Origin: Modicisalibacter coralii
GTDB lineage: Bacteria > Pseudomonadota > Gammaproteobacteria > Pseudomonadales > Halomonadaceae
DNA: 64,000 nt
Reading direction: 5' to 3'
NCBI RefSeq assembly: GCF_004117855.1
Contig: NZ_QWBW01000009.1
Span: 51,171 to 115,170 of the forward strand
Shown here: one piece after another, positions 20,435 to 44,642 of the stretch
Layout: every line of letters starts with the position of its first letter
Position numbering within the stretch: position 1 is the stretch's first letter
The notes under the pieces: model-generated
The model's database searches: none
Seen by the model: only the letters and a program-made list of their open reading frames with translations
What the model was told of the DNA's origin: nothing
Made by a program: the position numbers and the translations under genes

Positions 20435-21532
20435 TTACTCTCCCAGGGACTCGCCCAGCGTGAAACGGGCGACATTGTTGCCGCCGGTGTGAGCGCCGAG
20501 GTCGACGGGCTTGCCGCGATAGCTCAGCTCGACGCCGCTGGCATTGCCGATGGTCAGGCGAAACGGGGGTTCGCCCTCGGCGGTTGCCTGGGTACCGGCG
20601 GACTGCAGACCGACCAGGATGCGTCGGTCGTTGGCGTCGAAGATCTCGGTCCACGACTGTTCGTTGAAGGTGAATGACAGTCGACGGGCGTTGTCCGCCG
20701 CCGCACTGGTCGACTCGGCCGCCGCCGTGGTTTGATCGTCGTCGGCACCGGTCGCGTCACCGGTGTTGCCGGCGGCGGGTGTGTCGCCGGCACTGGCGGT
20801 GCCACCCGTGGTACTGGCGGCGTCGGTTGTCGGCGTGGCGGTGGCATTCGCCTGTTCGCTGGCCGGGTCGCCGTCGGCCGGAGTGGCGGTGGCGTCTTCG
20901 CCGCCCTGGGCCGGTGCGTCGTTGTCGTCGACCAGGCCGAGCTGGCTTTCCTTCTCGGGCAGCGGCGGGAGGTTCTCGTCGTCGGTGCCGGTCGAGGTGG
21001 TGATATCGCCGTTCGTCGACTCGCTCGCCGGCGCGTCGCTGACGCTCTGGGTGGCGGTTTCCTCGCTGTCGCCGAGGCCCAGCAGATCGTTACCGTTGCG
21101 GCTCTGCCACCACACCAGGGTCAGGCCGATCAGACCGGCGATCACCAGCAGCGTGAACAGCTTGATGACCCAGGCGCCGACCCGCGACGGTGGCCGGGAC
21201 ACCTGAACCGGTGTGATGCGTCGGTCGATGTCGCTCTTGGTGTCGCCGTAGAGGCGGTTGTAGGCCCCCACGACCTCGCTTTCCTCGAGGCCCATCAGGC
21301 GGGCATAGGCGCGCAGGTAGCCGCGCCGATAGGCGGCGATGGGGATCTCGCTGTACTGGTCGCTTTCGAGTCCGGTGACCACCGCCGGACGCAGGTTGAG
21401 CTGCACCGCCACTTCCTCGAGGGACAGCCCCTGACGCTCGCGCTCGCGCCTGAGCAGCTCGCCCGGCGAGTCGTTCCGGGCGTTGACGTCGGGGTCGAGA
21501 CTGGCTTCGTGTCGTTGTGGTGTGTCGCTCAT
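20435..21532 (-). CDS. rodZ: Cytoskeleton protein RodZ
   Basis: A 365-residue bitopic protein linking MreB to the elongation machinery. An N-terminal helix-turn-helix domain (about 22-95, GELLRRERERQGLSLEEVA ... AYRRGYLRAYARLMGL) precedes a TM helix near 120-142. A long, low-complexity, Thr/Ala/Asp-rich periplasmic linker follows (about 160-280). A C-terminal beta domain (DUF4115-like) contains SWTEIFDANDRRILVGL. The linker's acidic make-up suits a halophile. Confidence 0.94.
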   Translation of the reverse strand: MSDTPQRHEASLDPDVNARNDSPGELLRRERERQGLSLEEVAVQLNLRPAVVTGLESDQYSEIPIAAYRRGYLRAYARLMGLEESEVVGAYNRLYGDTKSDIDRRITPVQVSRPPSRVGAWVIKLFTLLVIAGLIGLTLVWWQSRNGNDLLGLGDSEETATQSVSDAPASESTNGDITTSTGTDDENLPPLPEKESQLGLVDDNDAPAQGGEDATATPADGDPASEQANATATPTTDAASTTGGTASAGDTPAAGNTGDATGADDDQTTAAAESTSAAADNARRLSFTFNEQSWTEIFDANDRRILVGLQSAGTQATAEGEPPFRLTIGNASGVELSYRGKPVDLGAHTGGNNVARFTLGESLGE

Positions 21533-41980: not shown

Positions 41981-42067
41981 GCCGGCGTGGCGGAATTGGT
42001 AGACGCAGCGGATTCAAAATCCGCCGCTGGAGACAGTGTGTCGGTTCGAGTCCGACCGCCGGCACCA
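41981..42067 (+). tRNA. tRNA-Leu (anticodon CAA)
   Basis: An 87-base class II tRNA with encoded CCA. The acceptor stem is GCCGGCG/CGCCGGC and the anticodon stem is GCGGA/TCCGC. The loop TTCAAAA gives CAA, and a long variable arm is followed by T-loop GGTTCGAGTCC. Its 3' part, from the anticodon loop onward, is repeated exactly at 43400-43453, marking the integration site of a small element. Confidence 0.97.
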
Positions 42068-42068
42068 C
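42015..42068 (+). repeat. Left attachment repeat (inside tRNA-Leu)
   Basis: 54 bases from the anticodon loop CAAAATCC to the base after CCA, identical to 43400-43453. Confidence 0.9.
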
Positions 42069-43399: not shown

Positions 43400-43453
43400 C
43401 AAAATCCGCCGCTGGAGACAGTGTGTCGGTTCGAGTCCGACCGCCGGCACCAC
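43400..43453 (+). repeat. Right attachment repeat (tRNA-Leu 3' fragment)
   Basis: Exact copy of 42015-42068: the 3' half of tRNA-Leu without its 5' half, so not a functional tRNA. Confidence 0.9.
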
Positions 43454-43492: not shown

Positions 43493-43685
43493 ACCCTTCC
43501 TTCTTCGGCATTGGGTCGCAGAAAGCGACAGAATAGGTCCGACAGTCGGCCATCGGTGCGTCGTGTAATGGCGTGATCGGGCGCCCCGGTCGTACCTCTC
43601 CGCAAAATCCGCAAGACTGTTCATCAAGCTGTCACCTCGCCTTGTCAGGATGTGCCCGCCACACCCAGGCAGGAGGCCACTTTTC
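43493..43685. other. Gap between element and zinc-ribbon gene
   Basis: No gene or structure that I can support, other than the ribosome binding site AGGAGG at 43672-43677 for the following gene. Confidence 0.4.
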
Positions 43686-43952
43686 ATGTTGAACCGTTCG
43701 AGACGTGTCGATTGCCCTGCATGCCAGGGCAGCAATTTCTGGAAGGGCGACCCCGGCCCCGCGGATGTCTTGCACTGCCGCCATTGCCGGGCTTTCATCA
43801 CCACCTACGACGACTATATTCACGATCGCATCCGTCGGGAGGCGGCGGCCACGCTGGCGGCGTTCGTCGGGGCGCGTACCGACGACGAACTGGCCCGGGT
43901 CGAAGCGCTGCTGCCCCGCTCGGGGGCGCGGCGGCAGACGCGGGCGGCTTGA
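43686..43952 (+). CDS. Small zinc-ribbon protein of unknown function
   Basis: An 88-residue protein with two cysteine pairs, VDCPACQG and LHCRHCRAF, 18 residues apart, forming a likely zinc ribbon in the first third. The remainder is helical and Arg/Ala-rich. ATG at 43686 is supported by AGGAGG 8 bases upstream; a GTG 12 codons earlier has no such site. GC3 is high, like the host chromosome, so it is not part of the integrated element. I do not recognise a named family. Confidence 0.7.
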   Translation: MLNRSRRVDCPACQGSNFWKGDPGPADVLHCRHCRAFITTYDDYIHDRIRREAAATLAAFVGARTDDELARVEALLPRSGARRQTRAA

Positions 43953-43981: not shown

Positions 43982-44054
43982 GGTCACGTTAATTAATCAT
44001 AAGTTATGTAATAGCTTTAATTTGATAAAAAACTGTACTAAGTTAACTGTGACC
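43982..44054. promoter_or_regulatory. AT-rich element with dyad ends
   Basis: A 73-base, strikingly AT-rich stretch in a GC-rich chromosome. It begins GGTCACGTTAA and ends TTAACTGTGACC, an inverted repeat with one extra base. It immediately precedes the candidate regulatory RNA and probably carries its promoter and activator sites; weak -10 candidates are TACTAA and TAAGTT near 44036-44044. Confidence 0.5.
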
Positions 44055-44222
44055 TCGCCGATCAGGGAGTGATCGCGCAGGCAAGGAGGCTCGGGCCAGG
44101 ACGGCCCACGGTGGGCAAGGAAGGCAGCTTTCGACAGGATGTCGTGATTCGCCAGGGAGCCCGCAAGACCGACATGTTAGTGCCTCGAGCGCCCCATCCT
44201 GCCGGATGGGGCGCTTTGTCGT
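44048..44222 (+). ncRNA. Candidate CsrA/RsmA-sequestering small RNA
   Basis: An approximately 175-base gene-free transcript candidate with repeated GGA motifs shown in stem-loops. CGATCA-GGGAG-TGATCG is at 44059-44075, GGGCC-AGGAC-GGCCC at 44093-44107 and CGACA-GGA-TGTCG at 44132-44144. AAGGAGG (44083-44089), AAGGAAGG (44117-44124) and AGGGAG (44154-44159) lie in between. It ends in a 12-base terminator hairpin. GGA in loops is the CsrA/RsmA recognition pattern and this layout is that of RsmY/RsmZ/CsrB-type RNAs. The 5' end is inferred. Confidence 0.55.
44188..44219 (+). terminator. Terminator of the candidate small RNA
   Basis: Perfect 12-base stem AGCGCCCCATCC/GGATGGGGCGCT with loop TGCC, followed by a short TTTGT tract. 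No protein gene ends here on this strand. Confidence 0.7.
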
Positions 44223-44496
44223 TGGGGCCTCCCGAATGACAGCAATGTCTCTCCCGCTGGTGCCGGCAAGTGTGGCTGCCCAATGGCGGGCGGTCTGTCC
44301 TCTTGAACCCGGGTCTTCCGAGCGATACCCCTCGCCCTGAGGCATAGCTATTGCCTTGTTTTTACGGGTAAATGCTCGGAAGCATCTCGAACGGCGTTCT
44401 ACATGAATAAACTCGAATAAATGTCATCAGTTCGCCGGATTGCCGCTGGCTGCGAGGCGTAGAATGGCTCTCGCTGCATCCCAGCATCCCTGTTTG
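44223..44496. other. Gap with no supported gene
   Basis: No coding region that I can support. A weak hairpin (AGGCA/TGCCT at about 44340-44357) is followed by TTGTTTTT. An AT-rich patch at 44340-44425 could hold a promoter. Confidence 0.4.
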
Positions 44497-44523
44497 ACCG
44501 GCGCTTCCAGCGCCGGTTTTTTT
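44497..44523 (+). terminator. Strong orphan rho-independent terminator
   Basis: ACCGGCGC pairs with GCGCCGGT over a 5-base loop and runs into seven T residues. It lies upstream of the lysE-type promoter, and no annotated gene ends here, implying a short upstream transcript. Confidence 0.85.
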
Positions 44524-44642
44524 ACGTATGGCGCCTGGTTTCCCGACCTTGCCCGATCGGGGGCTGGGTTCGTACTCTGCCGCCTTCGCCGGTCATCGCA
44601 CGATCCACACCGAAAACTCGCCTTTGGTCCAATCCCGCTCTG

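Follow-up and report, generated by a model that had tools for sequence, protein, structure and literature searches.

The stretch at positions 44048 to 44219 (plus strand) is very probably a gene for a Csr/Rsm-type, CsrA-sequestering RNA, one member of a family of siblings; transcription of this member probably does not depend directly on GacA. It lies in a 64,000-nucleotide stretch of Modicisalibacter coralii DNA, which was analyzed whole and is referred to here as the window. The preliminary description of this DNA had proposed such an RNA from the letters alone, and the proposal is supported by GGA-hairpin RNAs with their own terminators that occur elsewhere in this genome, in its congeners, and beyond the genus, as well as by the presence of an encoded CsrA. 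The product would be a small RNA of approximately 165 to 170 nt, similar in action to CsrB and RsmZ: its GGA signals, half of the six exposed in hairpin loops and half placed in linkers, would bind CsrA dimers, and this binding would relieve CsrA repression of mRNAs. The window RNA would thus be one sibling among a family in its own genome and genus; its transcription is predicted to be independent of GacA, and many siblings have a GacA-type box together with a TAAC-N4-GTTA element.

Sequence Elements of the Window RNA

Seven GGA motifs occur across 44048 to 44222 (at 44066, 44085, 44099, 44119, 44137, 44156, and 44204), six of them in the body (44048 to 44187) and the last in the terminator-like stem-loop, within its loop. 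Reading from a start placed tentatively near 44051, the RNA comprises hairpin 1 (CGATCA-GGGAG-TGATCG, 44059 to 44075, 6 bp), the linker GGCAAGGAGGC with a conserved AAGGA inside (44080 to 44090), hairpin 2 (GGGCC-AGGAC-GGCCC, 44093 to 44107, 5 bp), whose outer pair covaries, a GGA linker (44115 to 44123), hairpin 3 (CGACA-GGA-TGTCG, 44132 to 44144, 5 bp), the GGA-containing linker CGCCAGGGAGCCC (44150 to 44162), and the terminator-like stem-loop with a short T-tract (44187 to 44216). All three GGA hairpins are perfect and, together with the final 13-bp stem, are present in the minimum-free-energy fold (-80.2 kcal/mol, z -2.5), which is equaled in stability by 2 of 200 shuffles. The six GGA motifs described at the outset, three of them in perfect hairpin loops, are therefore found in the body as stated, and the three hairpins exceed chance: of 5000 dinucleotide shuffles of the stretch, 14 contain at least three, with a shuffle mean of 0.32. 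On the plus strand of the window, three GGA hairpins within 130 nt occur nowhere but here (12 of 12 such windows). The minus strand also has 17 such 130-nt windows, of which the 12 listed sit just below 42240, so that the feature is rare and yet not unique. This minus-strand cluster adjoins a tRNA, and its frame resembles by eye the end of an integrase, a piece of which gave no match when compared with Pfam; the cluster is probably a product of chance.

The region is free of genes in the sense that no plus-strand ORF of 60 aa or more lies over the RNA, as had been noted earlier, although shorter plus-strand frames of 56 aa (44069 to 44239) and 44 aa (44206 to 44340) and antisense ORFs of 100 aa and 73 aa exist. 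Upstream, the block at 43985 to 44047 (plus strand) is 78% AT, as compared with 32% for the whole window, a value that is reached by 0.017% of 63-nt stretches. The composition of the promoter-like block described previously is thus confirmed, but a consensus scan of the region finds no sigma-70 promoter by its rule. Guided by the promoters of related copies, a weak possible -35 element (TTTAAT, 44016 to 44021) and a weak possible -10 element (TAAGTT, 44039 to 44044) may be discerned by eye on the plus strand, both of which the scan missed. Likewise, the terminator stem, first given as 12 bases, is present and measures 13 bp in the fold, but its T-tract, TTTGT, is short, and a terminator scan of the region finds no intrinsic terminator by its rule.

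The GacA box has the motif TGTAAG-N6-CTTACA. No such box with three or fewer mismatches is found near the window RNA, which agrees with the earlier statement that a classical box is missing; four 3-mismatch matches lie elsewhere in the window, and the best score upstream of the RNA is five mismatches. The TAAC-N4-GTTA element is also absent there. As it has neither element, the window RNA is probably not transcribed under direct GacA control.

Related RNAs and Covariation

By score, the window RNA is not a member of any Rfam family. At gathering thresholds, a search of the whole window yields a tRNA alone, and in permissive mode the rsmX model (RF02144, gathering score 56) reaches 13.2 bits at E 4.3, which is no better than chance; the covariance search recommended in the preliminary description hence returns no family. 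Twenty loci, each with at least one related candidate, gave tRNAs only. When RF02144 was run over 58 relatives, one match exceeded the threshold, a clear rsmX of 79 bits in a genome of the same order (G056). The weak matches of this model that were read in the same genus (8 loci) appeared by eye to be gene ends with terminators and were dropped.

Homology was nevertheless found by other means. A blastn search (E 0.001) of 14 genomes of the genus recovered the window's own copy and gave no match in the remaining 13. With the window RNA alone as query against 275 genomes of the family, two genomes of other genera matched: G076 (78% over 82 nt, E 3e-9) and G119 (87% over 38 nt, E 6e-6), the latter no stronger than terminator-only matches (E 9e-6). 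Two matches in the genus, in G005 and G011, have E 0.0045, the chance level for 275 genomes. On reading, all four places hold multi-hairpin GGA RNAs with terminators; as G119, G005, and G011 are weak by E-value, they count solely through the RNAs read there. Six loci from this search (L106 to L111), matched within the terminator only, were set aside unread. Reading covered 13 of the other loci, leaving L113, L120 to L122, L124, L126, L129, and L131 outside it; L115 and L116 were Csr-like, and L112, L114, L117 to L119, L123, L125, L127, L128, L130, and L132 appeared to be coding or unrelated.

A covariance model, R1, was built from five rows, namely the window RNA and the G076, G119, G005, and G011 copies. 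In the window's own genome it detects copies on contigs C28 (67 bits), C35 (66), C10 (52), and C6 (27), and in other genera copies in G025 (122 bits) and G117 (70), with those of C28, C35, C10, G025, and G117 lying outside the training rows. One further match (G007:C11:814872) was judged by eye to be a terminator behind a gene. Among 95 RNAs, the nearest to the window RNA by alignment is the C10 copy of its own genome. An order of elements is common to many of these RNAs, with variation: hairpin 1, a GCAAGGA linker, hairpin 2 (GGCCAGGANGGCC), a GGA linker, hairpin 3 (GACAGGATGTC), a GGA linker, and the terminator. A search of plasmids and viral contigs gave no match, and a wider scan of genome contigs gave seven stretches, four of them in Halomonadaceae; those in Aeromicrobium, Nocardioides, and Stutzerimonas were by eye coding chance matches.

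Covariation was assessed in an alignment of 11 rows, A2, on which the structure of hairpins 2 and 3 and the terminator of the window RNA, the first row, was imposed. Nine of the 21 pairs are changed on both sides, in 18 cells, as compared with shuffle means of 4.0 pairs and 5.9 cells, and none of 500 shuffles reaches either figure. The covariation value is 0.220 against 0.119 when shuffled (0 of 500 shuffles), and structures slid along the alignment give 0.035 to 0.085, with 1 to 5 pairs and 1 to 7 cells changed on both sides, a comparison in which the first-row origin of the structure favors it over the slid versions. The covariation anticipated as a check is therefore present, but it resides mostly in the terminator (six of the nine pairs), with two pairs in hairpin 3 and one, the outer pair, changed in five cells, in hairpin 2. 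The latter hairpin is paired in 96% of cells and has three invariant pairs, its outer pair being GC in 4, AU in 2, CG in 2, and UA in 1 of the 11 RNAs and unpaired in 2. Hairpin 3 is paired in 70% of cells, and its two covarying pairs are unpaired in 7 of 10 and 6 of 11 RNAs. Hairpin 1 was misaligned by MAFFT; when anchored by eye, its second pair is TA in 5, CG in 3, and GC in 3, with pairing favored here by the choice of the arms by eye. The GGA motifs and hairpin 2 are conserved over the 11 RNAs.

Family Size and csrA Number in the Genus

Two further models, R2 (11 rows) and R3 (8 rows), were run on 14 genomes of the genus and the matches merged by hand. This gave 93 candidates, with E of at most about 4e-5 except for G013:C1:21932 at 2.5e-4; the model E-values are rough, 16 of the 93 served to build R2 or R3, and both models reward GGA hairpins. 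Weaker matches were left out, as were G002:C1:8824 (E 3e-5) and G003:C6:80953 (E 2e-7). A strict filter (at least five GGA, at least two GGA hairpins, and a T-tail) is passed by 78 of the 93 candidates and, among 6000 stretches of 165 nt drawn at random from 51 other loci, by 6, an inexact comparison in that candidates extend up to 328 nt. Among the 15 that fail is G008:C51:22794, which has one GGA and is probably false.

The candidates are distributed unevenly: 9 (8 strict) in the window's own genome, G000, 21 (19) in G002, 16 (15) in G007, 16 (11) in G012, 10 (8) in G008, 7 (5) in G011, 6 (5) in G005, 4 (3) in G013, 2 (2) in G009, and 1 (1) each in G004 and G006, with none of the 93 in G001, G003, and G010. 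With the same models, therefore, four genomes have 8 to 15 strict candidates, one has 19, and seven relatives have 0 to 3. A zero does not mean that Csr RNAs are absent, as G001 and G010 have GacA boxes followed by GGA-bearing sequence (L088 and L097), and G003:C6:80953, read later, is a good candidate, which gives G003 at least one. A sibling on contig C35 of the window's own genome (G000:C35:29251-29578, minus strand; locus L293, 753 to 1050) consists of a 68-nt tandem repeat of GGA hairpins in 4.4 copies with 94% match. It has 27 GGA in 328 nt, adjoins another Csr-type RNA, is preceded by TAACATGAGTTA, and seems to be a candidate sponge grown by repeat expansion, with no terminator found at its end.

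A csrA gene was found in every one of the 14 genomes; the window's own genome has one (G000:C15, 93.5 bits), G002 and G007 have three each, G012 has two, and the remainder have one. The number of csrA genes rises with that of the RNAs (Spearman 0.72, p 0.0035, n = 14, uncorrected for shared descent), as compared with a correlation of 0.46 (p 0.10) against genome size.

Promoter Classes

Stretches upstream of the 93 candidates, which lay outside the covariance models, were scored for both elements. A GacA-like box with at most three mismatches precedes 39 of the 93, versus 116 of 1860 shuffled upstreams, and TAAC-N4-GTTA with at most one mismatch precedes 54, versus 111 of 1860. The earlier remark that a GacA box is missing is correct for the window copy, whereas those 39 candidates of the genus have one. 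In 32 of the 93, a GacA-like box (at most four mismatches) lies exactly at -67 from the model start and is followed by TAAC-N4-GTTA, and in these 32 the T residues at -32 and -31 are invariant. Of the 54 occurrences of TAAC-N4-GTTA, 32 have the element at position -41 relative to the model start, 8 nt past the GacA-like box where that box is at -67. Neither element is found upstream of 29 of the 93, the window RNA among them. Related copies without the box have by eye TTGTAC (G076, G025, C10, and C28) or TTGTCC (G011b and G005b) 17 to 18 nt before TANNNT; the window copy has only TTTAAT-N17-TAAGTT.

Some csrA genes lie head to head with RNA candidates. In G002 (L370, G002:C12:20918-22068), a perfect GacA box (21143 to 21160) sits between csrA (21226, plus strand) and an RNA candidate (20918 to 21080, minus strand), and in G012 (L372, G012:C28:327509-328040) a 2-mismatch box (327802) sits between csrA (327509 to 327733, minus strand) and an RNA candidate (327885, plus strand). 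In G007 (L371, G007:C23:225866-226984), the RNA candidate is divergent from a tandem csrA pair, and the box (226147, two mismatches) sits between the two csrA genes. In three genomes, a GacA-like box also precedes what looks by eye like one and the same membrane-protein gene (L101, G000:C6:305952; L095, G008; L226, G011:C1:2358885), a gene rather than an RNA that may be regulated by GacA directly.

For part of the genus, we lean slightly toward a broader picture, namely an enlarged Csr system with at most about 20 sponge genes per genome, several promoter classes, some sponges head to head with csrA, and a window RNA released from Gac control. The classes would be GacA box with TAAC-N4-GTTA, TAAC-N4-GTTA alone, and neither, and some csrA and sponge genes would share one GacA box, head to head. 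The Gac-released class would then provide CsrA activity with inputs besides GacS/GacA, and a further regulator might act on TAAC-N4-GTTA.

Genomic Locus and Alternative Explanations

Upstream of the window RNA lies a tRNA gene (41981 to 42064), the 3' part of which (42015 to 42068) is repeated exactly, over 54 nt, at 43400 to 43453. The two tRNA ends bracket a 1.4-kb insert, whose Gp49-like and HTH_37 genes are presumably a toxin-antitoxin pair. Beyond the second tRNA end come a small zinc-binding-like gene (43686 to 43952), which matches zinc-binding and Lar families below threshold, then the RNA, and then a LysE-type gene (44748) that has close orthologues throughout the 14 genomes of the genus. 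Inspection of the letters of the 710 nt before the LysE orthologue in the 13 relatives revealed no Csr-like RNA, although GGA motifs number as many as 7 per 150 nt there (L005), and thus the position of the window copy is apparently not conserved. A tRNA end precedes the LysE orthologue in two relatives (L005 and L008), and the G011 locus (L008) has a tRNA-end remnant similar to that of the window. Directly before the start of the small gene lies GGCAGGAGGCC (43668 to 43688), which could form a small GGA-bearing hairpin covering the ribosome site and recurs letter for letter in 15 of the gene's 22 other copies in the genus; the gene itself is a possible CsrA target.

This arrangement bears on the idea that the GGA hairpins act in cis, as the 3' UTR of the small gene or the leader of the LysE-type gene. 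The RNA starts about 95 nt past the end of the small ORF and is on the same strand as both genes. However, when the small gene's 22 other copies were followed for 600 nt past their ends, no 165-nt stretch had three GGA hairpins, the maximum being two, in three copies (L036, L043, and L050), and a link between the RNA and the small gene was rejected upon this reading. In addition, related RNAs adjoin other genes by eye, and LysE lies 530 nt farther on, past another hairpin that ends in a T-run (about 44498 to 44524), so we consider a cis role very unlikely. That GGA motifs clustered here by accident, in intergenic sequence rich in GC, is barely credible: the number of GGA is by itself ordinary, being matched in 1060 of 5000 dinucleotide shuffles, and the minus strand has a second three-hairpin cluster, but homology across genera and inside the same genome speaks against it.

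The window copy might also be decayed, a silent relic of a Csr-type RNA gene from which the regulated promoter and some of the terminator have disappeared. Such a loss would fit the lack of both upstream elements, the failure of the scans to find a promoter or a terminator, and the lack of a blastn match in the 13 relatives. The three hairpins are, however, still perfect, and the copies C10, C35, G011b, and G005b are equally without the box, which makes its absence a feature of a class; decay is hence unlikely, and an intact CsrA-sequestering RNA remains the preferred reading.

Comparison with Known Csr/Rsm Systems

What is new here is the RNA family of the window copy and its size in part of the genus. 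GacS, GacA, and LadS are reported in Halomonas in the accessible part of a 2020 review, which for Halomonas anticariensis gives GacS-GacA, CsrA in brackets, and the small RNA as unknown (PMC7366521). For Halomonas hydrothermalis, the accessible part of another source gives a CsrA and never mentions CsrB (PMC12889724); the accessible parts of PMC13414033 contain no Csr RNA of Halomonas, and the accessible part of PMC5568370 does not name Halomonas. The family members scanned here escape Rfam, and that matters in a group for which a Csr RNA was, in the part of the review cited, given as unknown (PMC7366521). The spread among genomes (0 to 3 versus 8 to 19 well-formed candidates), together with the csrA trend, makes the question of Csr dosage testable within one genus.

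RsmX, RsmY, and RsmZ of Pseudomonas are short RNAs of a length class like that of the window RNA. They share with the present family several GGA hairpins followed by a terminator and the occurrence of several siblings per genome, and a GacA-like box precedes some siblings in the present family, whereas the absence of an Rfam match at gathering score and the lack of a GacA box in the window copy set the latter apart. We know of no genome with more than seven Csr/Rsm RNAs. That number is found in P. syringae DC3000, with RsmX1 to RsmX5, RsmY, and RsmZ, according to the part of the review available (PMC7366521), and is exceeded by the candidate siblings per genome here. Pf1 to Pf3 of Pseudoalteromonas fuliginea, likened by description only, are similarly newly found Csr RNAs of a non-model marine bacterium. 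CsrB and CsrC of Enterobacteriaceae and Vibrio also have repeated GGA hairpins; unlike these, the present RNA has no Rfam match, and the tandem-repeat copy on C35 of its own genome reaches 27 GGA. According to the accessible part of a study of Vibrio tasmaniensis, csrB copies usually number two to three, with four in this species, and the reason for several Csr RNAs per genome is raised there as an issue (PMC6262261). Its csrB1 to csrB4, as given in that part of the study, resemble the present family in that siblings occupy separate loci and are controlled differently (PMC6262261).
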